Notes under the pieces: model-generated | What the model was told of the DNA's origin: nothing | The model's input: only the letters and a program-made list of their open reading frames with translations | The model's database searches: none | Translations under genes and position numbers: made by a program | Assembly: GCA_000310025.1 (NCBI GenBank) | Contig: FN649726.1 | Span: 3,133,070 to 3,197,069 of the forward strand | Length of the DNA stretch: 64,000 nt | Origin: Ectocarpus siliculosus | Lineage: Eukaryota; Sar; Phaeophyceae; Ectocarpales; Ectocarpaceae | Direction: 5' to 3' | In this document: positions 10,001 to 59,632 of the stretch, one piece after another | Layout: each line of letters begins with the position of its first letter | Numbering within the stretch: the stretch's first letter is position 1

Positions 10001-13000
10001 TTTTCGCCCGATGCTGGCGGCGCGCCCCTTGCCCTGGGCTAAAGTATCCGTCTCTTCTTGATTCCCCCTCTCCTTACGGGCTCATGATTGCGTGGGGCCA
10101 TCACGCGGCTCTGAGAGCGTGGAGCTCGAAACACCCACGCCGTTGCATGCCGCTCCGCGTTTGGCAGCGCGGTATGTGCACGCCGGCGGCGTGGCTCACG
10201 AGCACAAGCGGGCGCTGTCGCTGCGAGCGGCAGGGATCCGCCGTGGTGCTGGTGGCGGCGGAGTGAGCGTGCGTGCGCCGACCCCCCGAAGCTCCAATGT
10301 TGTTTGTTTTGTCGTCACCACCAATAATAGAAATTATCTCCGTGCTGCTTGGGTGCTCTCTCTTTGTCTCTCTCGCTCGCCCCCCCCCCCCCCCCCCCCG
10401 GGGTTTGCCTCCGGGGTGGGGTTTCCTCCCTTGGCAACCACCTTTTAAAAAAAACCCAATTCCTTNNNNNNNNNNNNNNNNNNNNNNNNNNNNNNNNNNN
10501 NNNNNNNNNNNNNNNNNNNNNNNNNNNNNNNNNNNNNNNNNNNNNNNNNNNNNNNNNNNNNNNNNGGGCCGTTTTTTGGGGAAAAAAGGGGGGGTTTTTT
10601 GCGCCCCCCCCAAACCCCTTTTTTGGGGTTTGATCCCCCCCGGCCAGTTTTTGGCCCCTTGGGAAAGTTCAACCCCCGCCCCAGGGTGGGGGTTTACGTT
10701 TTTTTTAAAAACCAAGGAAAAGGGGTCCCCCGGGGGGGGGGGGGTGGGTTGGGGGGGTTTTTCCCCGATGGGGGGGGGGCCCCCCTTCCCCGGGGGAAAA
10801 ATTTCCTTTTTTTTTTGTTTCCCCCTCCCCTTAGGGGGTCAGGATGGGGGGGGGCCCCCCCGGGGTTTTGGGGGGGGGGGGCTGGAAACCCCCCCCCCGT
10901 TCCATCCCCTTCCCGTTTTGGCAGGGGGGTTTTTCCCCCCCGGGGGGGGGGCTCCCGGGCCCAAGGGGGGGCGTTGGGTGGGGGGGGCGGGGTTCCCCCG
11001 GGGGGTTGGGGGGGGGGGAGGGGGGGGGGGTGCCCCCCCCCCCCGAAGCTCCAATTTTTTTTTTTTTTTTTTCCCCCCCAAAAAAAAAAATTTTTTCCGG
11101 GGGGGTGGGGGGTTTTTTTTTTTTTTTTTTCCCCCCCCCCCCCCCCCCCCCCCCCGGTGTTTGCCATCGGGGTTGGGTTTTCGTCGCTTGGCAACGACGT
11201 TGTAAAACAAGCCAATTCGCTTCGTGAACTCGGCAACCAGGTTTCCGGGGTTTTTTACCTCTGGTTTTTGTTTTTGCGGTAACCATAATGGTGGTCGAGT
11301 AGATCATGTTGTACGGGGTGGAGAACCCTCACTCCGCGCAAGGGGGATGATCGCACCACGTTGTGTTAAAATGGTCAAGCATCCTCGAGGCAGTTACACA
11401 GCCGTGCTTATACCTGTCTCTGGAAGTGAAAGCACCAGAAAATAAGTAAGTCATACGCAGCTGTCATCTGTACGCAAGGAAGTAAGCACAAGATGCCGAA
11501 CACCCTTAGCAGGATGCAGCTCACCCTTCATGCGACTCGCCGAATACCTCACGGCGCTTCGCGCTTGGTGATGTGAGAACCTGGTCCGGTGAGAACCCGG
11601 CGTGCTCCGTCCCGGCTTTGTAGGGATGCGAGGTCAATGGTCTAACGACTACGGCATGCACGACTACGAGTACATAAGTACACTCCTCCCCACCTCTGTA
11701 CATCTCCCTGTCTCTCTTGTCTCATTCTCTGTTTCCGTGTTTGTTAGGTTTTCCGGATGAACCTCATCGAGTCCTTCACGTGCAACCAAGTTCTCGGCAT
11801 TCCCAACATCAGCACGTGAGTAACCGCCACGGCGGTCCTACGTTGTATGAAACCCCCAACCGCAACTCTTACCTCGACATCGCGACCACTTGGGGGGTCT
11901 CTTTGGACGGCGTGCCTGCGCACGCGTTCGGCGAAGGAGATCTATGTGCTTCTTGGACCCTCAAAGCCTACAAGTGCGATTCCCTGCCCACCCATCCTCG
12001 TCTCACGGCAAGGCCAGTGTTTCCATAACGAACACGATTGGGTAATGCAGCAGAGACAGCACCTATCAAGTGTGGGAAGTGTCTCCCCGCCTAAGACGGG
12101 GTTTGGATTGGTGTTCTCAAACGATCAAGAGCGGTTCTAAACGGCAACAAAAAAACAGCGTAACACCCATTTTACCTTGTAACCGCAAACTCGTGGCCCT
12201 TTGTTACCAGTTACTTCGGCACGTCCCCAGAGCCGTGGAACTACTTGCTGAAGGGGATGACTCTCCTGCCCGACAGCATAATGGGCAACCGTGACCTCAT
12301 GCAGGCGCTCGCGGAGTTTTCCGAGCCCCTGGTCCGAATAACGGACAAGCTGGTGAGAGTTGGGAGACTAGATGGACGCGCCAAACGGACTGCTATCTTG
12401 GCAAATATCTTGGGATGTCTTTTTTCTTTTTTTCATGTTTCGTTTTTTTCTTGCTGACGAATGTACTCGTTATTTCCTTCACGGCCGGCCTCCGCACCGG
12501 AGCTCTGCGGCGAGAAGGGCTTTGGCGTTGGATGTGGATTCTCTCTGTCACGCCATTGTCGTCCTCCTGAAGGATAGACAGACAGGCAGACAGACAGACA
12601 GGCAGACAGACAGACAGGCAGACAGACAGAGAGAGACAGCGACAGAGACAGAGACAGAGAGACGGGAGGGTGGGGGGCGAGAGAGAACAAGCGGGGCTTT
12701 TGGGTACAGGAGTCATTTGTGATGAATAGTACCCCTACTCTGCGCAGCTGTGACCCTGCTTCGCAGGTGCAGCGTAGCACGTCACCGACCTCCGAATCGC
12801 GGTTGGTGGCAAGAAAGACGCTTTCGGGTCTGGTTCGGGGGAAGACAGGGAATCATCGACACCACTACTGACCTTTCTTTCTCTCTCTCTCTCTCTCTCT
12901 CTCTCGCTCTTATCTATCTATCTATCTATCTATCCATCTATCTATCTATCGTCTACCTCAACACGGAACGTGCACACGCATGCACGTCGTTGCTCCAAAA

Positions 13001-15232: not shown

Positions 15233-15779
15233 ATCTCGAATGGGTAGTCTTTCTGTGTGTGTTTTTGTTATTCCTTAATTAAGTTTGGATGGGGGGGGAA
15301 ACCGTCATCTGTGTGCCCCCCCGATGATACCCCGCATCTTACGAGCGCGAGATATGGTGATTTTTTACACCAGGGTAGAGTCAGACCCGAACTTACAGCC
15401 ACAGCACTGCTCACGGCTCCATGCCTCGGGAATGAAAGGGGCGTGGGCACCCGTTTCTCGCCATGTGGAATCGTAAGAGTGCTGTGGCGACAAAGCTCGA
15501 AGGGTAAGCCGGAGTGTTTGCTCGGTCAGACCAACCATATTCTTGGAACTGAAAAGCAAGAAACCAAAACGGGATGGGGTTGGATACCGAGCGTAGAGCC
15601 GGCGACGCGATGGAAAGCGAGGAGAAGCTGCGCATGCTTGACCACTTTCCCTGATCATTTCGTATTCCTCGTTGTGTGTTGTAGATGGTCAGGCGTTTTG
15701 CTAGAGAAAGAGAAACAGAGACAGAATAGCCTTAGTCGAATTGCTTCCGCACGTGACCCGGTGGACACCTCCCTCCCGG
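13650..15779. other. Intergenic region, no supported gene
   Basis: About 2.1 kb between two plus-strand genes with no protein-like open frame. It holds the SINE-like insertion at 15015-15230. The promoter of the downstream EF-hand gene should lie in its right part, but I recognise no specific element. Confidence 0.5.
15015..15230 (+). mobile_element. SINE-like retroposon, copy B, with target-site duplication
   Basis: About 216 bp ending in a pure AAC repeat (15193-15230) and flanked by an exact 11-bp direct repeat, ATATCTCGAAT, at 15004-15014 and 15231-15241. A 3' simple-repeat tail plus a target-site duplication is the signature of target-primed reverse transcription. The body matches 1511-1720. 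It has no coding capacity, so it would depend on a LINE reverse transcriptase elsewhere. I find no convincing RNA polymerase III A/B boxes. Confidence 0.75.
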
Positions 15780-18700
15780 ATGAAACGTTCACACCATCAC
15801 CCTCCGCTGCCCCTTCCCTTCGTCGGCCGCCACGCGACGTCCAGGGAGCAACAGCAGCATCAACGGTGTGACCGTAGCGGAAGCCTAGTAGAGGCAGCTG
15901 GCGGAGGGAAGGAATGCCGCAGGTCCCAGGCTGTACAAGTGTCTCCAGAACACTTGTTGAAGCCGCAGACCGCCTCGTCATCGTCAACCGCCGCTGCTGC
16001 TGCTGTCGGCAATTTCGAAGCTAGTTCTGTCGAGGGCAGCCGGTACAGTTTAGCCGCCGGGGAGGTGGGCGGAGCTTGGAGTGGGAGTCTGGCAGGGGCA
16101 GGAGAGGGTACAGCAGTAGCGTGTGCGGTTGGAGAGGGAGGCGCGAGGGGAGACGGCAACAGGAGGTTGCTGAGGTGGCGATCGATTCGGCGCCTACAAC
16201 AATACAAGTCGTCTGGAGATGTCAGCGGCAAGTCCACAGTCAACGGTGGGGGGAAGGGTACGGCCGCATGTGGCAGCAGCACGCAGTCGCCAAGTCGGTC
16301 GCCAAGTCGGCTGTCGCTCGGACGCCTTGTCAGAGGGCCGGCGACGGCTTCGAACACAACAGGGACGGCGGTGGTGGCACCGGCAGCGGCGCCAGCAGCA
16401 ACAACAAGATCTCCGGGTGTTTGCTTGAACCACCGAACAGCAGTTCCCCCGCAACGGCGAGGCGGCTCCCCCGACGACCACCTTGCTACCAGCAGCGGCA
16501 ACGCTAGCCCCGACTCTAAGGCGGTTGGTGACGAAAACAACAGCAACAACAGCACCACCACAACAGCGGCGGCAGCGTCTCTTGTGATATCGTCGCTCGA
16601 CGACGAAAAGGCAAGAAAACCGGCATGCCTCGTGCCCTTCATACTACTCGACGACGACAACGGCGGCGGCGCTGGCGACGGGAGCGACCGCGAGCCGCTT
16701 TCGCCGGCGACCTCCATCGCCTCGGAGGGCGGCAGCGCGCCCGGGTGGGCCGAGCGGGCGGGCCTTTCCGGCGGGGTTGCCGTTGCGGCCACCTCTAGAA
16801 CGGCGGGGGGGCGGTCGAGTGCTCTCAGCAAGAGGAGGAGCCGCCTTGGCAAGGAGTGTCCGGTGGCCTACGACGACGACTTGTCGCCGCCGCCGACGGT
16901 CATGCCGGCGGCGGCCAAGAACAGCGGGGACCGAGAAGTGCCCCGCTTCCTCCGGCCGGTGTTGGTGCTCCTGACGCTCTCGCTGCTGGCGATCGGCGGG
17001 GCCGCGCTTCTTCAGGAGGCCCGCAGACGAAGGGCGGCAGCCGGGGAGGGTTGGGCTGTTGGTGGCGGCGGCGGCGGCGTGGTGCTGTTCGGCCCCGCGG
17101 CGTATGCGGCCGGCGGCGTGCAACTGCCGGAATCGGTGGTGGACGACATTTTCGAGCGCGCCGACAAGGACAAGAACGGAGTCATCGGGGACGAGGAGAT
17201 TCAGTATGTGAGTTAGTTGAAAGCCAGACGGACAGGAGATTCAGTGTGTGAGTTTGTTAAATGGCAAGCGGACATGGATCGTTTACGGCAGTAGTAGCTC
17301 GTATGGTCATGGAGGGACCTAATTTTTGTAGATTTGGTAGCGCGTGTTTTCTCTTTTGTCTTTTTTTCAGTCCAATTACCTCTGTTAGCTAAGTGGGCTC
17401 AAAATGTTTATGATGGGTGTTCCTTTTGCTCTAGGGGAGAGTGTGCGAGCATGTGCTTTTGATAATTGGGGGGAACAATCCACCCACTTTGCATCTTGTG
17501 GCTGGACTGACTCGACATCACTCGGTTCACTCCCGTCCGCCCCCCCCTGCCCCCCAACGAACATCCCTCTAGCTTGTCGAGCGCGCCGGGGGCTCCCTCC
17601 TAGACGATGCCTCGGAGATCGAGGCCGGCGTGGCGAGCGTGATCAAGAACCTTGACAGGAACGCCGACCAAGCGCTCTCTCGGTCCGACCTCAACACGTA
17701 CTGGGACCGGCTGGGTGAGGCGGCAGGGCAGGATATGGCGTGATTGGCTTGGCTTGTCTACAACCGCTCACAACCGGTTGTTGGTCGCCGTCTTGCGGAG
17801 CGTTCGGTTGGTCCGGTCGGATGGTGTCTGGAACACTCGATGAAGAAAGTTGCACCCGAACGATGCTGCTCTTGTCTTCTGTGTTTTTCGATGCGATGCT
17901 GCGTGCTCTTGCCGCCATTTGTGGTAACAACACACGAGGGCTAGCAAACCCCCGCCTTTCCCTCCGAGAGAACCAGTGGTAGTCGCGCAGCCATCAGGAC
18001 TTCGTTCCCGAAATCATGGGCCAGTCATTGTCCCCCCGTGTCGTCGTTGTCAAGTGTTTTCTAAACGAAGGAATGTTTCTGCACGAACGGTCATGTCTCT
18101 TGAAGGAAGAAAGGGAATGTTTCTACACGAACGGTCATGTTTCTTGAAGAAAGGGCATGTTTCTACTCGAACGGTCATGTTTCTTGAAGAAAGGGAGATG
18201 TTTCTTGAAGAAAAGGAATATTTCTAAATGAACGGATGCCCTCGTGATCACAGGAACGCTGCTGACGGTGGACGAGGCCGCCCAGTGGGTGCTGCACGCG
18301 GCGCAGCTACCCCAGGAAGTGGCCGACGCCTTCGTCAACAACATGGTCACTGGCTACGACTTTCCCGAACTGGCAGCACGCCAGGTGAGCGGTGCTTCCG
18401 GGGGCGCAGGTTCGGGCCCAATTGTTCGTCTCACCCTTGGGGGAGGGCTTGTCTCACCGTTGGGAGGTTTGTGCAAGTTTTACTGTTTTGGCCTTGTACG
18501 TCAACGGTGGCAGCGGGATGCGAACCGGGGTTGGAGGCAGGGGAGAACGACGGTAAATAGTGGTTTTGGGGCGTTTGACTCAGGCCCGAGAGGGAGGTGC
18601 GAGGGTTGACGGAAGTCTTTTTCAACTACACACACCGAAAGCTAACGCAGAGCAAACGGGAGACTCGATCGGGAAAATGTTTTGCTCCGAGGAAAAATGG

Positions 18701-26700: not shown

Positions 26701-27131
26701 AAGGGGGTATGCTGTCGAGGAAAAGCATTGAGTGGAGGTGAAGTGGAGGGCGTTGCAAGATGAACTAGAGCACTTTAGTTGGGTGGCAACGCGTGGCAAA
26801 GCGACGGCCATGTGGTGGTCCTGGGGAGACGAAACAAACCTCCAGAGAGGCACGGTAGACGTCTCGTGCAGTAGGTGCCGGCACGATGAGAGTTCACTTC
26901 ATCATTGATAAGCGAACGCGATGAGACGCCGATTAGTTATCGTCTTACATGGACTCATTCCCGTTCCCTCGATACCCTTTCATTCTGACAAGCTACCAAA
27001 ATTGCGAATATCGCGGTCCCACACCAATGACCAAGAGGAAGAGGGGGGTACTGGACAAAAGCATGTACCAGTATGTGGTGTGTCGTTGGATGAGAAGCGC
27101 GACGACAACAACAACGACGACGACGACGACG

Positions 27132-27183
<52 letters not shown>

Positions 27184-27680
27184 CCAGTAGTAGACTCAAT
27201 GTCAACAAGTGTATCGATCAACGGGTGTCGTCACGTATCGCTTCTTGCTCTGTTGTACTGTAGTAGAAGGCAAACGCCCCGAGAAGCGTAGGCTACATGT
27301 AGTCTTTGTAGTGTAGGTCAGACTGTAATGGCAATGATAATCAATCTGAGGCCCTTCAGTATTAGCGCTAGAAAACTGCTACTACGCTACCGCTACAACT
27401 GCCGTTGAATAAACGCTGATCAACCGTTCATGTGTCAATGACGTTTTGAACAAGGCGTGAGAAACAGCTCAGAGTCCAACCTATGATGTACGATCTCCCC
27501 ATCCCCCTCGAATACAGCGGCACGAATGACGTGTGGTCTGGATCTAGGGGGCTTGACCCTAGAAAATATATGCAGCCGTACGCTTATACCCACCGGCTTT
27601 CTCCGCGGGGCATGGGGAGGAGACGAGGAGGACGACGGAGGAGGTGAAGGCGGTTCCAGTGCTTGCTGCGTTGGCTGCAT
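23773..27680 (-). CDS. Coiled-coil protein of unknown function
   Basis: Five exons on the minus strand: 27680-27594, 26711-26091, 25887-25561, 25265-24711 and 24408-23773, all joined in phase 0, giving 741 residues. I do not recognise the family. Exon 2 has a possible folded segment (EVEVCIDGGFYSVVPADIDP, about residues 150-200). Exons 3-4 carry a long, highly charged Arg/Glu/Ala/Gln stretch (about 310-480) typical of a coiled coil. The C terminus is Ser/Arg/Pro-rich and ends ISTTPVWKRP...GGRIS. Such proteins are often cytoskeletal or flagellar, but nothing here proves that. Exon 1 (29 codons) is the weakest part: it rests on a good ATG, a CCG|GTGGGT donor and matching phase across an 882-bp intron. 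The last four exons are well supported by splice consensus and frame continuity. Confidence 0.6.
27101..27184 (+). repeat. GAC/AAC trinucleotide microsatellite
   Basis: GAC and AAC units, ending as pure AAC, lie within intron 1 of the coiled-coil gene. The Asn/Asp and Cys homopolymer open frames here are products of this repeat. Its flanks do not match the SINE-like element, which also ends in AAC. Confidence 0.9.
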
Positions 27681-28306: not shown

Positions 28307-31300
28307 ATGCGGGTACATCCGCTGCGGCTGTTGTGGAGCGAAGTCCTTGGACTCGAACGAGTTGAACGAAGTGGGTGCCCCAGCACGCTACTGTCAGTGG
28401 TAACCCATCTTTCCGATGATCGTTTCCATCAGCTGAAAGGGTTGTGCCTCGCCCTCACGGACGGCGACGACGGCACCGTCAAGAGTAATTCCGCCGCATC
28501 GGCAGTGTCCACGATATGTGTCGCCGTCTTTGTTCAGGACAAAACCGCATCTACTCGGGTTCGCCATGCGATTCATGCCCTCCCTGGGTTGGACCAGCTG
28601 ATCGTACGCGTGCAGTGCTTTACTAGCAGAGGCCCGTCGAAGGCATCCTGGTACCCCATCAACCAACTGAGGAACCGAGCTCTGGCCCAGGCGGACACCG
28701 ACCTTGTGTTGATTTGTGATGTGGACTTTCGCCCGTGCCGGCGCCTAGCTCACCTGCTTCGTGCATCTGGGGAGATTAAATCTATTTTTAAGCGCGTATC
28801 CTGCCGACTGAACTGCGTCGTGTTGCCAGCTTTCGAGGTGTCCGCCGCCCGCGACGACGACGACGATGGTGTTAGCAATGAAGAGGCGGCACAAAGAGCA
28901 GCCATTGAAATGCCCGAGAAGTCGTGGTGGTTGAAGACTCTAGCCTGTAAGCAGGAATTGCTAAAACAGTGGGAACAGGGCCGCGTGGTTCCGTTCGCAA
29001 GCCGAGTGTGGGCTCAAGGACATCGCGCCACGAACTTCGACAGGTGGAAGGCAGCCACCGACTTGTCCGGTTGGTACGAAGTCGCCTATGAGGAAGGCTT
29101 CGAGCCGTTCGTTATCATGAATCGGCTGCTTGTTCCTGCATTTGACGAACGATTTGAGGGCTACGGAAGGAACAAGGTGTGCCACTGTGCAATACAACCA
29201 CATTTCTAAAGTTTCTTGAAAATTCTTCGTTGCAACGATCGTGGTGATTCAAACTCAACTAAGCGCTACCCTCTCGTTGCTGCCCCACCGCTTATAGTAT
29301 GTGGACCCCTATAATCCTTGTTCGCGTCCTCTGCTGGTGGATACTATCCAGGTGATCTTCTTCTATCGACTCCACAGCCTTGGCTTTTCGTTCACAGTGG
29401 AGCATGGTCTGTTCCTCGTGCATGCCCCCCATGAGCGTTCAGAGTCGTGGCACAGAACGTTCGATCGCAGAACGTTCGATCGTGAAGCTGTTGCTGAACT
29501 CTCGTTGCCCGCCAAGGGGTATCACTCCGAGCGTTTTGCCGCTATTCTCGAGCAGTATAAAGTGGCGAAGGAAGAGGTCAACGCGGAAGCTTTGCAGAGA
29601 AGACACCCCCCGCGAGGTGGCAGCACCAAGAGAAGGTTTCCTTTGGGGTTGAGAAAGAACCAGTTGGGACATTGGCCGGTGGGGGCAGGGCCGAAGCTCG
29701 GCAAGTGCAATGTTGGGGTGGCAAGAACGGCCTGCACAGACGCCCTCCGAGACGCCATGCGTCACGCTCTTTGGGCCAGCCTGCACGCGCTTTGGTACGA
29801 GTACCATCCAAAAAGAATCGACGTTGTCGCAAGGTGAGACACCCCGATGTTCGCGTTGTTTGGGAAATGTCACGGCGTGGCGGGTGTGCTGGGATTGTGT
29901 ACGATGGCTATTTCGACGAGATTAGCTACCCCCAGGGCGCGGGGATCTTGACTGTGTCGATAGTCGCCCTTCCTTGCGCTCTGCCGGGCATCCTGCCCGC
30001 GCCCCTTGGTTTGGCACAAACCACCAACCTGTTTGTTTGTGTTGCCTCACCTCGGTTACCCTCGCCGCAGGCTTGAGAGCCGTCACCGCCGCGCTGAATC
30101 CGACATCACCATCTTTACGCAGTGCTCGCTCTCCCGGCTGAACCGCCTCGAGCGAATGTGCGATCTCTGGACAGGCGTGGTTTCGGCGGCCATAATCAAT
30201 GGTGGAGGGGGCCATGTGGACCAACGCATGCGACGGAAGGTTTCGGCCCTTCATCGCAGGGTAGAGTCCACGGGGAAATGCCGCCTGGATATATGCCTGT
30301 GCCAGCCCGCCCCTGGTCTTGCTGCGAGAGATGGTCTCTACCCCGTAAATTCGCTCCGGAACGCCGCCCTCCGCGCATCAAGAACCGACTTGGTCTTGTC
30401 AGTGGTGAGTAAGTAGCAAGCTCTCCGACCTTACATAGGCAGCTTTCGGTGTTGCTCTGTCGAAGGTTAGGCTACACTGATGATCACATTCGCGGTACCA
30501 TGCAACCTTAACCTTCAACGGTACGACTCCGTGTTTTTGGAAAAGCTCCTGGCCCCGCGTGTCGTGCATCGAATCTCAGGACGTCGACGCCATGCCCATG
30601 CGGGGTCTCCACGAGGTCGTCAGCCGTCCCCCGGTGTACGCGCGACTCCTTGAAATGTGCCGAGGAGGAAGGCCTCCCACTCACGCAGCCCCTGCATTCC
30701 CCGCGGCCTCTTGTTCGGGGGCGGACACAGAGGCGGCGACCTTGGACACGCATCCACCAACGTTTTTGGTTGTGCCTGCGCTAGAATTCGTGGGTGCAAG
30801 CTCGCCGGACGACCCGCGCATCCGCACTCTTCTGCAGGAAGCCGACAACAAGCGGAAGGCCGCTGACCTCGTCGTGGCCGGGGACCTGCAGGCCTTCCAT
30901 GCTGAGTGTTTCCCCGAGGGCCACCGACAGACCAATCTCGATCGGTGGACAACACTCCCAGTAGATGCGACTCCGTACGAGGTGAAAAACAAGTAAAGAC
31001 AACCCGCTGTTCTGTTCCGGTGGTTGTTCTTTCCTCAAGTGGTAGTTTTGGGGGAAAAAGCACCACCGTTGTGTAATCGAACTGTAACACGTTGTTTAAC
31101 TGCAATTATTTTCCATAGGTGATGTACGCAGAAGGCTACGAGCCATACGGCCTCTTTTTCCGCCGCCACGCCCCGCCGTTTGACGAGAGGTTTCGAGGGT
31201 TTGGACTGGACAAGGTATGCGCCAAGATTAGACTCAATCACAGTCGTACGTCTCGAGTTCGTTTTACAGCTAGAAAGGTTTACAGAACAGAACAAAGTCG

Positions 31301-34300
31301 TCTCTTATGACGATGGGGCTGCAGTTGCACACTGCGTAGCTCCTGAGGCGCGGAGAGCCCCGTCCGGCCGCGAGTGACTGTTTCCACGGGCCCTCCTCAA
31401 CTACGAACGAAACATTATACGTGATTGTTAAACAGACCACAACTACAAGTCGGCTCACCTTTACGTCTGAGTACCGTTCTCTCGCGCCGTGGATCCTGTC
31501 TGTATCCAGGCGACATGGCCGTAGGTGGCAATACAATGGGATGGACGATATGTCTAACGGAATTCGTTTGGTGGTGACTTGACGTGATGAACGAGAAAAA
31601 CAGTTTCAAACAAATCACACGGCACACAGTGCAACGTTAAGTCAGGAAGGGCGGCTTCGTCATTTCTTTGCGATGTTTGGCGTGACGAGACGGGCACCGG
31701 GTTCGACAAAGCCTCCCGCGATAGCAAGGCAATTGTGTCTCCAGGCCTTGGATGCAGCGTCGATTCTCCTCCAAACTCCTCTTTGAAGCAGACGGCGAAG
31801 CGTCCAACCGCTTCGACTTGCCGCTTCCATGTCTTTTGTGCAGCATCACGGGGCATCACGACCCGTCATGACCTCGTTGCTCGAAATGTGTAGATACATG
31901 CTCCTCGACATCCCGCTCAGTGCAAGCAAAGCTGGAGGCACCTCCAGACGCTATGGAGCTCCAACCAAGATCTACCCTCCACATTCTTCGTCGCGGCTGA
32001 TCTTCGACCTCCCTCGCGATGATGACGACGCGGCGGTAACGACGCAGGTGTCCCACTGCTGGCACCTTCACCGCCTCGGGTGGACGTTTCGCGCGCTGCC
32101 GGTGGCGTACCTCATCGACCTGCCGCACCCTGCGACCGACCACAGAAGGGCCCACCGGACTGCGCCCAACTTTCGGGCCTCCGTGGACGGACTGTTCCAG
32201 CGTTTCTGCACCGAGGTCGACCGTTCCCTCGCCGCCAGTTCGTCCTTGCTCTCTCCATCTGCCCGCGCCCCCACCGCAAACGTTTGGGGGGCTACGTACT
32301 ACCAAGAGACTCAGCTTGAGGGCCTCCAGCGTCGAGATTACGAGGTGTTGGCGGGGCTGTCTCTCTTGGCGTGGGGTGACGCTTGGGCAGCCGGTCGAGC
32401 CTACCAAGGCGGCGGCGGCGGCGGTGGCGGCGGCAGCAGACTCCGAGTCACTTGCGGGGGAGGCTGGAAGCTCAAGGGGAGCATGGGCGCTTGGGAAGGA
32501 CTGCGGGCCAGGGATGCGTGCAGCAAAGACGGTGACGACCCGGCAACCGAACCGGGTTCGTGTGGCGCTATCCTCGGCGATCGTGATCGAGTCGCCATTC
32601 CGCCACGAATGGTCGGTGGCTGGGTACACGTTTGCATCGAGGGGCAACAGCAAGGAGATGCGGGGGCTGGCGGTGACAGTAGCTCGTCTGGACTGCATGG
32701 ACGATCTGTCATCCGACCCCGTACCCTGCACGGGGTGGTGCGGTACTGGGTTCACCCACGGTGGAATCCAAAGAAGAGCCCGCGGGGGAAACTTCCCGGG
32801 CTGGGAATGTCGGGGGACGTGCGATTTTTCGTGCGCTGGCGCGAAGGATCCATCGGTTTCTGCTCGCTGATGGTGCTGGGGCGACCATTGAAAGAGGTCT
32901 GCGAGGTGCGTACATGCTCGAAAAGGCGAGACTCCCGTTTCCTTACCGCCACTCTCTCGGATGAACCATACTCTCCTCACCATAGGCCACTTTCGAAGAT
33001 GGGCGAGCCAGGGCTTATCGGTCTACCAGAGAAAACGAAAAAATGTTTGTTTGCTTGGAGCGGCTCTTGCGGCTCCGAGCTCCCCCAAACGAACACACAA
33101 GGTAGTGATTCAAGTCGGCACTCCACCCTCGCCCCCCGTTCCTCCCGACGCACAGGTGCACGTGATTCACCAAGTCCCGTTCTCACTAGAGCACGGAAAA
33201 ACGACCGCGATACAGCTCGAGGCGGACATGCGGCGTACGCCGGGCAACGGGGGCGCGCTCTCGTTCCGAGCGTGGGCAAACGGGAGCGTGGTCTACGAGG
33301 CTCGTGTTTACGCCGGCGACGTGGCCGTTTCGGGTGATAACGAGAAGGGGATGTGGGTCGAGGACGCCTTACTTCATGTTCTCGCCGCCTCTGTTGGTGA
33401 CGGTGGGGACAAACGAGAGAGGGAGAGAGGAGGGGCCGCCGATGCGGAGCATGTGCTCATCGGCGGATTGGAAGTCTGGGGGAAGCACCCCACTCGTGAA
33501 GCAGAAGAGGGGGGGTTGGAACCAGACACTACCCTTCTTGCTGCTCAAGGCAGAAAATACACCAGAGAGGGGCTCGTTGCTCAAGACGATGCCATGGCGA
33601 GGTCTACAATGGCGGGAAAGCTGCGCTTTGTGTTTGTGGCAAGGTAAATGCAAAGCACCGAATTCGCGCGCAGATCAATGAAGTGTTTGGAATCTGTGTC
33701 CTGGGTTACATGTCGCCTGTCAATCTGTACCGATGTTTGCCCCCGATTCAGTTGTACTTGTGTGCACCAGGAAGCACTTGTCTCGCTCAGAAACGACGGA
33801 CAGATATACACAAGTCTTTTCGCACCGCCTGTTCTATCATCGTGGCGCAGTACGGGAAGGTGTGGGACACACTACCTGTCTCAATTGTTGGGAACATCTC
33901 CCTGTGTCGAAGCGCTTCACGAGGCTTCTCCTGACCTCAGCGGGCGGCATAACCTTCTGGCGGCGGCAACCGATCCAGAAAAGAGCTACGAGAAACGCCG
34001 CCACAAAGCCGAGGAAATCTTGCGATCGGCACGGCACCACCTGTCGGACAGGGGCATCGGAACCCTGACGTACGTCGAGACGTCACACCTGTTCCTGAAG
34101 ACGTTTTCGGACGTCGTTATGGTAAGCCAGTTTTCGAAGCTCCTATGACACGCGCGAATGTAAAGCGTGCGAGAAGACCTGCGGAATTTGGAACCGTGGA
34201 AGTGTTTTTTCTCAAGACCTTCTCGTCATCAGAACGCGTCACGGTGGACAAGTAGACTGCGCACCATAGAGCAGCTACAGTACTCTATTCAGCAACCCTC

Positions 34301-35828
34301 GCGTAATTTCCGCCGGTCGTGCTTCTGATCTCTCACCCTTCTACTGCGAATCTCTACGATGTGCTCAGCGCGAGCTAGCGCCACACTTTCGGGTGGACGT
34401 CGTGGTGCTCCGTCGCGATCCGGCGGCGGTGTTGAAGAGCCGTATCGAACTAGGCCATTTCTGCCGCCGGCACAAGCGGAGCGACTGGCTTCTACTTCCC
34501 GCTGCTGCGACCGCTACCAGCGCTCACGACCGTTGCCGGCAGCATGCGGACGCGCCGTGTGGTGGGGGTGAGAAACGTCGTCTATCTCCCGTCCAGGAGG
34601 TTGACATGGATGGGTTCGAGGCACTGATTGCGTATGCCGCAAACACGGAGACCCAGATACGGTACGAAGGTCGATGCCCATATTGAGCGTGTTGTGTTCA
34701 CGGCAGGCGGTTGTTTGAGGGTGGTTAACATCGATGAACAGTAAAGCCCATACCATTTCCCAAACAAGGTGTCCGTGCAGGCTCTACTTCGACACCCACC
34801 GAGGCCTGAACTCGGGACAAAGAGGGCAATCCAACTGCAATCCAATTTGTGCTTCTTCCGAAGCAATGCATGCATGTGGTGTTACCTCCCCACATCCCCC
34901 GCTCTTTCGTTGAGCTTTGTCGCTCAAACCAGGCTTGTAGTGTGTGAATATATTGTTGGCTTTGTCCATTAATAGTAGAACCAGAGGCGGAGGAGTAACG
35001 AAAGGCTTGGGGGCCGATGATTCCACGAGGATAACCAGAAACACCCAAAGGTGGCCGAAACAACAGGCGAGACACTAAAGCAGCGGTGAAACTCGTGCAA
35101 GCATGTTGAGGTGAAAATATGGAAACAATCAACCTAAGCTATGGCATGAAACATGGCGCTGCACTTAGAATGGCCGACAGTTAGAGGCGTTATCATACGG
35201 AGCAGAAACGATGTCCCGTCTCGAAAGGAGAACGCGACCAAGGTCTTGCAAGCGACTCAGGCAGGAAAAAAACAAAACAGGATTTACCCTCCTACTTCAC
35301 CCGTCCGCCCCAACTCACCCATCTCACCCATCTCTTCTCACCCGCCCCCCTAGAACATTCAGGAGGTGTTACGAAAGGAAATCGACACCGCCGAGCGGTA
35401 ACGACGACGACGCATCAAGAGGCGCAAAGCCAAGAGGAGGTGGTCCGTCTCTGCCCCATCCTCCCCCCGAAGCGGAGCCGCCGCTGCCGTCTTCGGCGGT
35501 ACCACCACCAGACCTTTCGGCTGTTCCGCCGACCGCCGCGTGCAACATGGTCGAGACGAGCCTGGAGGCGTTGCAGACGGAGCAAGGAGTGCGAAAGTTG
35601 TTCGCAGATTTGGATCTCGAGGTGTCGGAGGGACGGACGTGGCGAGTCTTCGGGGCCGGGGCTACCAACGCTCGAGACCACCAAAAGCACCGGGTGGTCC
35701 CGCTGGGCTACTGCAGGCAGCGGCTTATCAATGCGGGGGGGGGCGACGGCCCGGGGGAGAGGCACTGCGAACCGGCTGCAAGCAAATCAGCGATCGGCAG
35801 GGAAGATAGATTGAAGCTTGAATATTGA
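28307..35828 (+). CDS. Tandem GT49 glycosyltransferase fused to a sulfotransferase
   Basis: Ten exons: 28307-29176, 29352-29833, 30071-30404, 30580-30981, 31119-31214, 32048-32905, 33102-33643, 33752-34121, 34369-34661 and 35354-35828, giving 1573 residues with every splice phase matching. Two GT49 (LARGE-type) domains are visible. The first (about 30-355) has YPINQLRNRAL, the metal-binding DVD at 138-140, GHRATNFDRW and VPAFDERFEGYGRNK. The second (about 465-800) has YPVNSLRNAAL, DVD at 563-565, GHRQTNLDRW and PPFDERFRGFGLDK. Residues about 830-1190 form a module I cannot assign. A sulfotransferase follows, with WRSTGRCGTHYLSQLL (about 1226-1241, PAPS 5'-phosphate loop) and VVVLRRDPAAVLKSRIELGH (about 1329-1348, 3'-phosphate site). 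Intron 7, which joins the two halves, is only 108 bp, arguing for a true fusion. The role is probably synthesis and sulfation of a glycan in the Golgi; acceptor and sugar are unknown. No signal anchor is seen at this ATG, so a 5' exon may be missing. Confidence 0.78.
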
Positions 35829-37863: not shown

Positions 37864-40800
37864 ATGGACCCCGATACAGATGCGCTGCTGCATGTGAAGG
37901 GAACTCTGCCTGCTGAGTACGAGCTCGGAGAACTCGAGGTGCACAGAGGGGCTCCACGAAAGTACCGCATTGGTCTGAAAGCAAGACACAGCAGCCAGGC
38001 CGGCCAGCCGTTACTTCAGTGGCACAGCCGGACGTTCACCACGAAGAGTGCACGTGGCAGAGACAGAGCCGCCGAGTCTCAAGCATGCAGAACCATCACA
38101 GCGCAAACATGGTTAGACCTTGCAGCAAAGACCATCCAGCATGAAGCGATCCAGCAACCACCCTCCCGGGTTACAACGGGTGTCAGACTTGCAGCTCCCG
38201 CACCTGGTTCTCTTCAAGAACCTGGTGTTGGAGGCGCCGAAAGGTTGCGAGAAGGGTGCGGCGGCGCCAGAGAGGGCGCCGGGAGGAAGAAAGGAAGCCT
38301 AGGAAAGAGGGCCCGGCGAGAAAGAGCTACCATGCTGCGCGAGGAGCTCGTCAAAGCCTTTCCAGGCGCACTCGAACTTCAAGCTGGGACGCTGGCAGAA
38401 TTGTTGCGGGCGTGGAAGGCAACTGAGCCTGAGATGGCCGATGAGGCGATGAAGAGGTACATGAACAAGGGCACGTACAACACATCGCAGGCTAGAAAAA
38501 AGATCAAGCGTGCTCGCGAGGCAGATCTCAGAGCACGGGCGGTTGAGGCGGCGGCGGATGAATTTCGCGCGGACAGCATCGAGTATTTTGATACCGTGTT
38601 GAGGGATGCGCAGAAGGCCATCAGTGCGGCAAGCGGCACTGGAAGATGTGAGTGTTTTTTTTGAGTGTGTAAAGAACTGCTGTACAGCAGTAATGTACTG
38701 CCGCAAACTACTTTCTCCTTTAACCACTGTACTGCTGTGTACAGTGTCACCACTCGAATAAGTATACTGCTGTAAAACACTGCTGTTAAGTTGCTGCTGC
38801 GTCCGCCCAGCACCATGGGCGCCTCTGCTGTGCAGTGCACATCCGAAAGCAATACTGTAACGTTCATTTCATCGACAACAGTTGTTTAACCCCCCCGTCC
38901 CCACACCCTCGCTCTCTCCCTCCGGCATTCTCCACAGGACGAGGCGAGCGCACCGGGGGCTGCCCTGTCCAACTACCAGCTGGCCCACGTGGTTCAACAG
39001 GCCATGACGTTGCTCCATCTGTACCTTCTCCAGCAAGACGGGGTCAACCGCACCGATGCGCTAGCAGCTGCCGCACGAGTGGGCAGACGAAGCATTGGAA
39101 CCGTAAACGACTGGGAGCATGGTTTTCTAGCACGCGGCAAAATCAAGCCGCCAGAAAAAGGTCGCTTCCAGCGGACCTTTCTCCTGGAGCTCGACGAAGG
39201 CATCCAAAAGCTGGTGAAGCAGTGGATGCTGGACAACTGCGGCATACTGAGCGGTGAAGCCAACAAGACGGCAGAAGATTTCCGCAAGTGGATCAACAAG
39301 ACCATCATGCCCAAGCTGGAGGCGCTGGAGACGGAGGACTTCGACCCTTTCGACGGCTTGAGAGTGCGGCGGGAAGAACCAACAGAGAAAGATGGCGAGC
39401 CCCCCGTTCCCGGGAAGCGTTTCATCTCCCTGTCTACAGCAACGGCATGGCTGAAGAAGCTAGGATGCGAGTACCACGGTGCCAAAAAGGGTCTCTACTT
39501 CGACGGCCACGACGACCCGGAGACCCTCAAGTACCGGAACAACGACTTTCTGCCGCAACTGTTCGACGCTCGCGACCGCATGGACGTGTGGATTCCGGTG
39601 CCGAACGAGGAAGCCGAGGCCTGGGGCATTGATGTGAACGAAGTGCCGGAGGCCGACCGCATGCAGGAAGGTGACGGTGTCTGGGTGAGTGTCGACGATC
39701 TACAATCGGCGTTGGCGGACCTGTCGCCTGACCTGCAAGCTAAAGTACAGAGCAAGAAAACGTACCCGGACGGGAAGAAGGCCTTGCTTCTCTACCAGGA
39801 CGAGAGCATCTTCCGAGGTTAGTGGGAAGTCAAGTCAAAACATAAAAATATTGTAGAGCAATGCAAAAATTGTCGTCCACCACGTGAAGTTAAAGTTGCA
39901 AAAATACTTCGACAAGGTTGGGTTGTGTGCAGTGGTCTCGCACATACAGCAGTACTGTGTAGGAGTACTGTACATTACAGCAGAGTACTGAACGTTTTTG
40001 TTGCACTCTCTGATTCTTTTTTTTTTGGCCGCCCCTGTTTTCTTCTTTCTTCGGCAGCCAACGACGACCAGAAGTGGGCGTGGTTCAGGAAAGACCAGCG
40101 TGTGGTAATAAAGAAGTCACCCGGCCAGGGCATCATGGTGTCAGGAACGATCATCCACAACGTTGGCTTCTTTTCGGCGTCGCCGAGCCAGGTAGCTGAG
40201 GCCGAGAGCAACCGGAAGAAACGTTGCCGTGAGTCGGCGGCTGCAGCTAGACGAGGGGAGAACATCAAACCAGAGAAGTACCGGCCAATCGACATGCTGC
40301 ATGTCGACGACGACGGCAACTATTGGTCCTTCCATCTCTTCGAGTACGGCAAGAACAAGGAGGGCTACTGGACCGGTCTGAAAATGCTGGACCACACGAA
40401 CGACGTCCTGGATGTGGTGGCCGTCCTCTACCCCAACCACAAGCCTGTGTGCCTGTTCGACTGGTCGTCCTGCCATGACTGCCTAGAGGTCGGCGCGCCA
40501 AGGGTGAGCGGGATGAACGTGGGTTTCGGTGGAGTGAGAAAGGGAGAAGAGCTTGCGGCGATGGATGCCGTGACGATTCTGGAAGATACGCCACTCCTCA
40601 AAGCTGGCACGACACAGCACTTGGTTTTCCAAAGGGGGGACGACCCCCCCTTCTACGCCGAGCACCTCCGACCGTCGGAGTATGTCGGGAAGCTGAAGGG
40701 GATGCGGCAGATCTTGTTCGAGAGGGGGTTGCTGAAGAAGGGCATGTCGAAGTTGGGGGGGACGGGCGAGAAGAAGGACCTCAGCATGAGCATGGAGCAT

Positions 40801-41183
40801 GTTCTGGGAGAGCAGCGAGACTTCAAGGAAGTTGACTCTAGTCTGGTGCTGTTGATGCGGCGGCACGGGGGAGTCTGCGTGATGCTCCCCAAGTACCACT
40901 GCGAGTGCAACCCCATCGAGCTCGTTTGGGGCCGTGCGAAGGACTGGACGCGCCAGAACTGCACATATTCGATGGAATGCTTGCGCAAAAACGTGCCGTT
41001 GAGCTTTAGACCGGAGAAGGATACTGTAGACAGGCCATTGCGGTAGTCCAGGCTTACTGCAAGAAGGCTTACACGCATGCCCTCGTGTACCTGAAGGCAC
41101 GTGCACTTGGACCCACGGGCAAGGAGATCTACAAGAAATTCAAGTCCCACAGGCGCCCGACGCCGAACACGTGGAGGAAGTAG
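37864..41183 (+). pseudogene. DDE-superfamily transposase, frameshifted near the C terminus
   Basis: Three coding blocks: 37864-38628, 38938-39817 and 40058-41022. They carry a plausible DDE triad: Asp in LLLYQDESIF (about residue 543), Asp in CLFDWSSCHD (about 683) and Glu in YHCECNPIELVWGRAK (about 836). The last motif is typical of Tc1/mariner- or IS630-related DDE enzymes spread in fungi and algae. The N-terminal block is basic and may bind DNA. Near 41022-41028 the frame breaks: the open frame ends at 41046, while the next frame continues with YCRQAIAVVQAYCKK to KSHRRPTPNTWRK and a stop at 41181-41183, so a one-base indel has disabled the C terminus. The first intron fits as GC-AG (donor GCG|GCAAGC); the nearby GT donor at 38648 would create an in-frame stop. 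No terminal inverted repeats were found by eye. Confidence 0.7.
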
Positions 41184-48100: not shown

Positions 48101-51100
48101 AACGCGTTAACCTCCGCTCCATTCCGCGTGAGATGCGCGAGTCCCCTGCCCCCCCCCCCCCCCCCCCCCGGGGACCCCTGCCCCCCCCCCCTTTCCTTCC
48201 CCCCGGTCCTCCCGAAGGGGCCACCGGCCTCCCCGGGGGAGGGCGGGGCTCCGGGGCGAAAGCCGACCCCCCCGCCGCCCAAAAACCCCGGGGGGGTCCA
48301 CCGGGGGGAACCCTCCCCCCGGAACCCCCAACAAAAGCAACCCCCCCCCGAAGCCCCCCCCCCCCCCGGGTGCCCCCCCCCAAATCTTTTCCCAAACAAG
48401 CGAACCGGCCCCGGGGGACCGCGGGGGCCAGGTTTGGGGGGATTCCCCCAGGGCNNNNNNNNNNNNNNNNNNNNNNNNNNNNNNNNNNNNNNNNNNNNNN
48501 NNNNNNNNNNNNNNNNNNNNNNNNNNNNNNNNNNNNNNNNNNNNNNNNNNNNNNCCCCCCCCCCCCCCCCCCGCTGTGACGCCTTGCCCCTCCCTCTTCT
48601 CTTACCGCCGGTTCATCCGGAGTGGTCGACTGCAGTCCCTGGGCGAGGGCGTGCATCAGGGGCGAGAGCAGACCCATCAGCAGCACAGAACCGCGGGCAG
48701 GGTCTACGGCGGGAAGCACTCGCACGGAAGCCTCGATCAAAGTCAGCCGCTCCTCGATGCCCGCGCCCGCCCGTGTTGCCACCTCCAAAGTCTTTCGCGA
48801 AGCAGGCGAGCGGCGCCGGGGGGACGGGGGGGTCAGGTTGTGGAGGGATGCGCGAAGGACGACAGAACGACAGAAGGACAGAAATAGCAGCGCCGAGGCA
48901 CAGCCAAATCAAACAGCAGTCAGTCAACCCTTCGCAGCAAAGAAAAATAAAGAAGGTAACGCAGTTCACCATGTTAGCAGGCACGACAACGGCAAACCCC
49001 TACCATTGATGCCATTCAAACGATCTCCACACAAGAAGCCGGTGCAAGAACAAAAACAGCCACACACACACGGCACACACCTGCAGCAGCGCTTCCAATG
49101 CTGCCGGGTTGTTCACGATGGCCCTCTCGCAGCTCGCAGCGACGGTGCGCACAGAGATCGCCGCCCTACCCCTCGCCTCGGCCTGCTGCAGCCCCACCGT
49201 CAAGTACCCCAGGGCGCGCGGCAGCAGCGACGGATCGCTGCTCCCGCCCAGCCCCCCGGCGCCCCCCGTCGGAGTCGCGGTCGCCGCTGCCGCTGCCGCC
49301 GCCGCCGGCGTGGCGGCTACTGCCCCCGTCGCCGCCGACCCCGCTCCGTCCCCTCTTCCGCCGACGGTGGCGGCGGCGCTGCCACCGACCGACCCGAAGC
49401 GCGGCCGGCCGTACCGCCCTCCGCCGACGAGGGTCGCGAAGGAGCCGACGAGCTTGCAGCCGGCGGCGAGCACCAGCGGGACCGAGGACAGCGACGCGTT
49501 CACCAGGAGCTCGTTGATAAGGGCCGACACCAGCGCGTGCGTGCGCCCGGCGTCCTCGGCACACTCCTGGTCCTTGCTCCGCGCGTGCGCGTCCATCCAG
49601 TCCCGGATCTCCTTCGACACAAGCGTGACCGCCAGGAGGGTTACCTGTTTAGACGGACGGGGACCAATGTTAGGACGGGTCGTATATAACGCGATTGTGT
49701 ATCAGTGTTGCGCGACAACGGGTAGGAGCGGCAATCGAGGAGGCCGTTCGGTGGCGGCAGCGGCGGCGGCGGCGGCGATGGCGGAGGGGAGGAGGAGGCG
49801 GAACAAACTGAAGTTACCAGGGGGGCTAGATTTCAAAGTGAAGAATTTTGTGGAGACTTGTTGGGGAGAACAAACATATATACATAAAAACGCCGTGAAA
49901 CGATGCAACCGCTGTTACTGTTCGGCTACAAACACAAAGAGCGGTGGTGTACCGAACGGTCACCAGACGTCAAACCATGGTAGAGCCATGATCGATTGCC
50001 TCTAACATTGGTCGGGGAGTTCACATCAAAACACGTTTCTTCAGCATTGAAGATGCACTTTTCTCCCCAGCGCCTCACCTCAAGCGCTTGCCACGACTCT
50101 GGCCGAGCCTTGAGCCTCTCCATCACGTGCGACAGGTAGTCCGCCCGCAGAATGTAATAGATCACCATCAACACATCCTTCACGCCCTGAGTTTTTCACA
50201 GCAGCAGTTGAAGCGGAATGGAAGGGGATGAGTCCGACAGGCGCACCAAAGAGAGCGGGGAACCGGAGCAACTCCGAGCGCACGCGTGGGGTGGGCAGAG
50301 AGATAGATAGGTCACGCGAGACGATTCGCACACGAAAAAAACTCCTATTAATTCGTGAAAAATACGAAATTGCGGCTGAGAAAGAACCTCGCAGTCGCCC
50401 CGTCCCGTACACAAACAAGAGGATTGATTTCAACGCATGCATGCACTGCGGGGGAAACATTATCCGGTTAGAGAAAAATCCGTATTCAAGTATGCATAAA
50501 CTCCAGCTGGACACCACACACTTGCTACAAAACAAGATTCGACATTGCTGCCATAGGAACTTGAAACAAACTCGCTTCGCTCCGGGTACTACAACTATCA
50601 CAAGGACAACGAACAACGAACTAGACCGCCCGGTCGCAGATAGCGTGGCGCCGGTGACACAACCCACATGACGGACAGGAAAACATGCAAAACACACGCG
50701 ACGCAACAAACAAAGAAGCCGAACCTGCTGCTGTAGCTGCACACAACAATTATTACCTGCGCCCCCTCTCTCAGCTCCGTGATTGCGTCCTCGTCGAAAT
50801 TGTCCCCGGTGTAGGTGCTCCAAGACACGAACCCCGCCGGCAGCTCGCACTTGGCGAGTAGGACGTTCAGCAGTCGCACGTATACCGGTCGGCCTAGGGA
50901 GGGGTGTCTCTCGGAGAACGGCACGTCCTGTGATTGGCGTCGCCGTTTAGGGGGACGGGGGGATTGGGTAAGGGTTGCACATTCAAACGTGGTGATTGTG
51001 CTCGTAAGGAGGGTCGGGCGGCGGCAGGAGCTAGGAGGCATTCTTACAGCCGCTATCATACGCCAGAATGAAAAACAATACCACCAAATAGATTGTGAGA

Positions 51101-59302: not shown

Positions 59303-59632
59303 GCTCTATGATGCTCGCTTGTATCGGTTCCAGCCGGCCGTCGGTAGCAGCAGTAATGTAGCAGTAGTAGTGGAAACCAACTAAGACCAACAGATCGACG
59401 TTTAGAGAGTCGAGGTAGATGGAGCAAACAACGTTGGCGGTTCTATCCGTGGTAGGGTGCATAAAAGAGAGTGAGTAGCAGGGGAGTGGGTTGTTGCGTG
59501 TGTGGCAGGCCGTGTCCCGTCGCAGGTTGCAGTTGTCTGGTACTGACTCCTGTCTCTGCTCTGCTGGCCGGGGGGCACCGTGTTGCAACGGGACTGTCGT
59601 CCAGCATTGTCGCGCGGACCTCCTCTGCGAGT
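59303..59632. promoter_or_regulatory. Short divergent promoter region
   Basis: Only 330 bp separate the start codons of the small membrane protein and the MgtC-like protein, so the two genes probably share promoter elements. No specific site is recognisable. If the MgtC-like gene starts at a later ATG (59786) the region is about 480 bp. Confidence 0.4.

Follow-up and report, generated by a model that had tools for sequence, protein, structure and literature searches.

A candidate brown-algal protein combining two GT49 glycosyltransferase domains and a sulfotransferase-like domain in one predicted chain

The matriglycan synthase LARGE1 makes a matrix glycan with two tandem glycosyltransferase domains in one chain, a GT8 domain that adds xylose and a GT49 domain. 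B4GAT1 also transfers glucuronic acid (GlcA), and the GlcA of matriglycan is reportedly 3-O-sulfated. In animals, GlcA transfer by B4GAT1 or LARGE1 and GlcA sulfation by the HNK-1 sulfotransferase, which we take to be a member of the Sulfotransfer_2 family, are the work of separate enzymes. LARGE1 itself transfers GlcA, according to the accessible parts of two reports (PMC12514197, PMC9746966). Here we describe a gene of the brown alga Ectocarpus siliculosus whose predicted product likewise has GT49 with the same motifs and two tandem glycosyltransferase domains in one chain, and for which a role in matrix glycan synthesis is also proposed. Unlike LARGE1, it has GT49 twice followed by a sulfotransferase-like domain. 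No GT8 domain is found in the chain, for which Pfam gives only PF13896 and a weak sulfotransferase match. The gene occupies positions 28307–35828 (+) of the window, the 64,000-nucleotide stretch analyzed here (C1:3133070–3197069 of a 189-Mb genome in 492 contigs). GT49 has been named an unexpected carbohydrate-active enzyme family of brown algae (PMC11468063, BMC Genomics 2024). The accessible parts of that study describe no GT49–sulfotransferase protein, and none was found in our searches of open-access literature.

Ten exons, all on the forward strand, give an open chain of 1522 amino acids with the order GT49a–GT49b–middle region–sulfotransferase. By sequence, the chain comprises two GT49 domains and a member of a sulfotransferase-like subfamily, in a frame that stays open through all junctions. 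The original prediction had proposed ten exons with matching phases, and this holds: all nine introns in the corrected model are GT-AG with compatible phases. The window contains two runs of N, at 10466–10565 and 48455–48554, and the gene includes neither. On genomic sequence alone, we consider the one-chain architecture likely.

Two GT49 blocks, each with its own DVD and DERF.G.G..K motif, had been proposed for this gene, and the Pfam profile, the structural matches and the motifs all agree with that proposal. Glyco_transf_49 (PF13896, cut-off 27 bits) matches the chain with an E-value of 8.4e-70 (236 bits) and the second half alone with 1.7e-34 (120 bits). Both halves match LARGE1 in the Protein Data Bank (PDB; E 9.5e-22 and 1.2e-24). 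Exon 1 (28307–29176), with the putative start codon, encodes most of the GT49a catalytic domain, including DVD (28718–28726, residues 138–140) and DERFEGYGRNK (29144–29176, residues 280–290). Exon 2 (29352–29833) encodes the end of GT49a, where VHAPH contains His314 and His317, and then a linker toward GT49b. The second domain begins in exon 3 (30071–30404) and continues through exon 4 (30580–30981), which opens with DVD (30580–30588, residues 563–565), and exon 5 (31119–31214), which ends with DERFRGFGLDK (31182–31214, residues 718–728). It closes in exon 6 (32048–32905) with LIDLPH. In both domains a phase-0 intron directly follows the Lys of the DERF.G.G..K motif. The open frame around exon 3 (29964–30416) has no ATG ahead of the first GT49 strand, and a separate GT49b gene starting in this exon is therefore unlikely.

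GT49a and GT49b are 30% identical over 226 residues. Their distance from each other is about that to LARGE1 (32.5% versus 34% identity), so they separated long ago. In a four-row tree built from short rows, GT49b groups with a GT49 gene on contig C12, away from GT49a (support 0.83). A recent internal duplication is thus not supported by the sequences, and a tree of four rows allows nothing more.

The accessible part of one LARGE1 report places Asp563, Asp565 and histidines including His708 at the Mn2+ of the GlcA-transferase domain (PMC9746966). The number of a further histidine, His705, is our own offset from Asp563 and Asp565; the two histidines are those in YMIHMPH. GT49a keeps both in VHAPH, so its active site looks complete. 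In the IDLPH of GT49b, Asp752 replaces the first metal-ligand histidine, and its metal binding may therefore be altered. Among the paralogues, the C12 gene reads FARPH and lacks the first histidine, and the gene on contig C16 reads IHAPH and keeps both.

The substitution in GT49b is the first ground for supposing that the chain is real and partly active, with GT49b or the sulfotransferase acting as a scaffold or binding domain. A second is that LARGE1 unites two different transferase activities, whereas the window protein has GT49 twice. However, GT49b keeps DVD, DERF and the neighboring residues, Asp is able to bind Mn2+, and the window sequence carries all 18 invariant columns of its sulfotransferase subfamily. 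We regard partial activity as a serious but minority possibility.

The C-terminal domain extends over the last four exons. Strand 1 (RFVFVA) is at the end of exon 7 (33156–33643), which begins with the rest of the middle region. Exon 8 (33851–34121, with a corrected start) carries the 5'-phosphosulfate-type loop STGRCGT, HE..P and YVETSHLF. Exon 9 (34369–34661) carries the 3'-phosphate-type motif RRDPAAVLKS at about 34411–34440, and exon 10 (35354–35828) encodes the C-terminus. A 5' loop together with a 3'-phosphate motif is the signature of sulfotransferases that use 3'-phosphoadenosine 5'-phosphosulfate (PAPS). Both PAPS-site motifs of the original prediction are present; the family profiles match only weakly, with scores under the Pfam cut-offs. 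Sulfotransfer_3 (PF13469) gave E-values of 0.0025–0.041 depending on the stretch used (14.6–18.5 bits, cut-off 27), and Sulfotransfer_1 (PF00685) gave 13.6 bits against a cut-off of 22. The sulfotransferase identity of the domain thus appears to be carried by its relatives more than by Pfam.

A scan of genome contigs returned one relative, L024, a 300-residue frame in Smaragdicoccus niigatensis, with 44% identity in the best segment and an E-value of 7e-26 among the candidate stretches. Aligned one-to-one, the window domain and this protein are 38% identical over 207 residues. The Smaragdicoccus protein has no Pfam match of its own at E ≤ 1, and its frame overlaps an upstream frame matching no identified family. 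Together with L048, from an actinobacterial genome, and L051, L052, L057 and L058, from IMG/VR contigs, these two are the seven members found of one subfamily. Eighteen columns are invariant in all seven members, including those of GR.G, HE..P and Y..TSH, an Arg followed eight positions later by a Ser, and one Leu and one Asn. The window sequence shows STGRCGT and then Arg1283 and Ser1291, and alignment positions G14, R15, G17, R118 and S126 are invariant in 7/7. The Leu and Asn, Leu1438 and Asn1470 in the window protein, are located in exon 10, which supports the last exon as it had been proposed. Exon 10 has a proline-rich insert that none of the four other sequences in the printed alignment shares, and it is possible that an intron was overlooked there.

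Known sulfotransferases are reached from this subfamily at a distance. Searched against solved structures, the seven-member profile matched 14 chains at E ≤ 10, all weakly, the best being SULT2B1 (0.032) and then Teg14 (0.043). Nine of these chains are named sulfotransferase, three are Teg12 or Teg14, presumably glycopeptide sulfotransferases, one is AGAP001425-PA and one is an endophilin. A three-member profile found no known sulfotransferase among solved structures. Sulfotransfer_1 is matched by four of the seven members at E ≤ 1 (best 9.2e-7) and Sulfotransfer_3 by two; one member also matches HD-CE (E 0.0041). These comparisons suggest that the window domain belongs to a sulfotransferase-like subfamily hardly detected by Pfam. 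With the Smaragdicoccus protein as query, two of 394 genomes of the actinobacterial class were positive, the query genome included; with alignment A2 as query, the one positive among 396 genomes of the phylum was the query genome. Plasmid records gave no match to the Smaragdicoccus protein, and phage records gave none to the protein containing the L052 domain. Used as a probe on the 189-Mb Ectocarpus genome, the L052 sulfotransferase returned only the window gene at E ≤ 0.5 (E 0.02). Single-sequence structure predictions were poor, with a mean pLDDT of 36 for the Smaragdicoccus protein and 34 for the L052 protein.

The domain had been likened to HNK-1-type sulfotransferases. This membership is rejected, as Sulfotransfer_2 (PF03567) has no match in the chain (E ≤ 5) and does not appear in the family lists of the seven members. 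The search covered no eukaryote collection; the relatives that it found come from bacteria or IMG/VR contigs, and eukaryotes may hold others. The HNK-1 enzyme, in Sulfotransfer_2, therefore offers an analogy only. Elsewhere in the genome, Sulfotransfer_2 matches one short stretch of 28 profile positions (E 1.1e-5). Known brown-algal carbohydrate sulfotransferases are related to the animal ones, according to the accessible part of PMC8307928.

A second protein of the subfamily is also a glycosyltransferase–sulfotransferase fusion, of 482 residues, at L052:468–1913 (+) on a 7.9-kb IMG/VR contig (IMGVR_UViG_3300035158_000761). For its first 200 residues, the phage glycosyltransferase family phrog_12406 gives E 3.9e-7 and Pfam GT2 only 0.1; phrog_1574, a family of unknown function, has a better score, at 1.2e-11. 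Its glycosyltransferase is thus of another type than GT49. The window gene, as modeled, and L052 both carry such a fusion, which makes at least two unions of this sulfotransferase type with a sugar transferase; fusions of this domain therefore appear to recur. About 270 residues precede the sulfotransferase in L048:670–2283 (+) and match no family; by eye, this part holds NADIEL, which is like a GT-A acidic motif. The frames of L024, L051, L057 and L058 contain little besides the sulfotransferase, and none of L024, L048, L051 and L052 has a GT49 match. No description of an L052-type fusion protein was found in the open-access literature covered.

The full mechanism that we propose is one multi-domain enzyme that couples extension and sulfation, and we hold it tentatively, at close to an even chance. 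The protein would work in the Golgi. GT49a, and perhaps GT49b too, would add a sugar, most likely GlcA from UDP-GlcA, to a matrix glycan under synthesis, using Mn2+ bound by DVD and His. The two GT49 sites would extend or branch the chain with GlcA, and the tethered sulfotransferase would sulfate that chain from PAPS, which would couple its extension and its sulfation on the spot. As for the middle region, it may bind the glycan or serve as a spacer between the active sites. The product would likely be a component of the sulfated matrix of brown algae that contains uronic acid. Probably, the sulfotransferase came in as a gene of its own and became fused behind two long-established GT49 units. 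GlcA transfer and sulfation are both inferences, the former by analogy with LARGE1 and B4GAT1.

The GT49 sugar could instead be other than GlcA, or the sulfate could go to a different residue, such as a fucose in the chain. Identity between the GT49 domains and LARGE1 is only about 34%, and no characterized member of the sulfotransferase subfamily was found in our searches, which leaves room for either change of substrate. Against this, GlcA is the sugar that both LARGE1 and B4GAT1 transfer. Another substrate is thus possible, although GlcA remains our choice. A broader proposal is that brown algae produce part of their sulfated matrix with a single polypeptide, which would build a uronic-acid chain via two GT49 sites and sulfate it during synthesis. 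It would be one of a larger and undescribed class, formed by repeated fusion of one sulfotransferase subfamily to unrelated glycosyltransferases, in bacteria or their phages and in algae. In this wider form we think the proposal rather doubtful. The enzymes with which brown algae synthesize and sulfate their fucose-containing matrix polysaccharides still need characterization, according to the accessible part of a 2026 review (PMC13380512). A gene naming the sugar-adding and the sulfate-adding steps in one chain is a direct candidate for matrix polysaccharide synthesis. It would, if the mechanism is true, show how nature can link the growth of a chain to its sulfation within one protein, and it points to a sulfotransferase subfamily nearly invisible to Pfam.

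Whether the GT49 and sulfotransferase parts form one chain depends on the junction between them. The original prediction had exon 8 start at 33752, after an intron of 108 bp (33644–33751) taken as too short for a gene boundary. The homologues favor a start at 33851, which gives an intron of 207 bp (33644–33850). In comparison with the Smaragdicoccus protein, acceptor 33851 scores 104 bits versus 97.8 for 33752, and with it the chain reads RFVFVASTGRCGTHYL, which aligns gap-free with RFIFSINSGRAGSQYL from strand 1 into the loop. The start at 33752 is possible, but it adds 33 residues within the nucleotide-binding core at a lower score, and we did not retain it; the boundary 33850/33851 is the most likely acceptor. 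Because this acceptor aligns strand 1 gap-free into the loop, exon 7 ends inside the sulfotransferase core, with strand 1 in exon 7 and the loop in exon 8.

A short intron alone leaves a gene boundary possible, and it no longer serves as proof; the single chain itself is probably right on better grounds: its frame is open, it scores well relative to the other frames, and the core of the sulfotransferase is divided between exons. After GT49b, exon 6 runs for 774 nt with no stop codon, as did only one in 2000 dinucleotide shuffles. The 438 nt of exon 7 before an ATG at 33594 are also free of stops (P 0.015). In the middle stretches of both exons, the chain frame has the top codon score of all six frames. 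Reading exon 6 on without splicing gives scores of −0.161 in the intron and −0.228 in 33156–33337, where the chain frame scores 0.063. Codon statistics thus modestly favor the chain frame.

The alternative that bears most directly on this architecture is two neighboring genes, one with both GT49 domains and another for a sulfotransferase that begins at the internal ATG (33594–33596 (+); GATGCCATGGCG / MARSTMAGKLRFVF), which is a possible relic or alternative sulfotransferase start. By the Kozak rule this ATG is in an apparently good start context, and it precedes the first invariant column by roughly twelve residues, like the N-termini of the stand-alone relatives L051 and L058. The exon 6 frame could continue to a stop at 33337, and the coding statistics of the middle region are modest. 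However, two genes would have to be reconciled with a chain frame that is stop-free over 774 + 438 nt and scores best of six, with the negative scores of the exon 6 read-on frame, and with a spacing of only about 256 bp between the genes. We judge the two-gene arrangement unlikely, and the ATG may possibly be a trace of a formerly separate sulfotransferase gene. From this ATG, the sulfotransferase part (window 33594–33640) opens MARSTMAGK, as stand-alone relatives do.

Several observations besides this ATG and Asp752 weigh against a single working enzyme. The exon 6 stretch can also be read without a stop in one frame of the reverse strand, so the shuffles overstate the weight of an open frame. 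Codon scores do not divide exons sharply from introns, with −0.021 and 0.088 for the middle stretches and up to 0.035 and 0.116 for intron frames; exon 1 reaches 0.181, but is in the training set. The open reverse-strand frame and the intron scores slightly lower our confidence in one chain and raise that in two genes. Of six sub-windows of 150 nt, the chain frame outscores the two other frames in four, and the last sub-window overruns the end of the exon. The pyrimidine tract at the exon 6 acceptor is poor (0.4). A simple scan of hydropathy found no membrane segment in the modeled chain, which may lack a first exon further upstream. The sugar and acceptor of the enzyme are putative, and the middle region found no relative in family, PDB, genome or viral-contig searches.

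An open frame at 26921–27190 (+) starts with MRRRLVIVLHGLIPVPSIPF and ends in an Asn/Asp-rich repeat. It may be an exon for an N-terminal anchor that the model lacks, or have no meaning at all.

The middle region, of about 400 residues (about 757–1165), separates GT49b from the sulfotransferase. The original prediction, whose two GT49 domains and sulfotransferase stand as parts of the chain, had left out this region as well as the His-to-Asp change in GT49b. The middle region matches no Pfam or NCBIfam family at E ≤ 5, has no credible relative in the PDB (best E 0.26) and none in viral contigs, and in the genome matched one other place, on contig C33 (E 0.225). It contains the hexapeptide GKLPGL (32786–32803 in exon 6, residues 975–980), presumably a motif of polysaccharide lyase family 14 (PL14), and the fetched PL14 sequences show the same hexapeptide. 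A PL14-like jelly roll that binds or trims the product is improbable, as hhalign against 22 PL14 sequences gave a probability of 1.7%, hmmsearch gave −3.2 bits, the region has no Pfam match, and PF21294 has no match in the genome, though the controls were equally silent; we rejected this identity as unproven.

Genome searches were run exon by exon with few candidates scored, so that absence from them is not proof. Within that scope no second copy of the fusion was seen, and GT49 searches found the window gene and places on C12 and C16. Stretches of about 19 kb round the C12 and C16 GT49 genes (L012–L015) have no match to the middle region at E ≤ 5; their best sulfotransferase match is at E 0.21, in L013. 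Sulfotransferase probes returned the window gene and otherwise only places on C3 (E 0.136) and C90 (E 0.62). By eye, the C12 GT49 gene has an intron at the same place after the DERF motif Lys, and the C16 intron lies a few bases further on. The C12 intron (L013:849–1098) is apparently GC-AG, again by eye, where both window GT49 introns are GT-AG.

Three other open frames in the window have weak matches below cut-off. Downstream of the gene, 39823–41043 (+) matches DDE_3 transposase (E 0.0014) and is perhaps part of a transposon. A frame of 503 residues at 15705–17213 (+) has an EF-hand match near its end (E 0.001), and 59465–60406 (+) ends in an MgtC-family match (E 0.00017). Genome-wide, 150 of 880 candidates for EsV-1-7 repeats (PF19114) were scored and gave 150 matches. 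Brown algae have an expansion of this family, which occurs patchily in other eukaryotes, according to the accessible part of PMC7457493, and its expansion here supports the brown-algal setting. The EsV-1-7 matches are often in tandem, as on contig C30 near 3.19–3.31 Mb.

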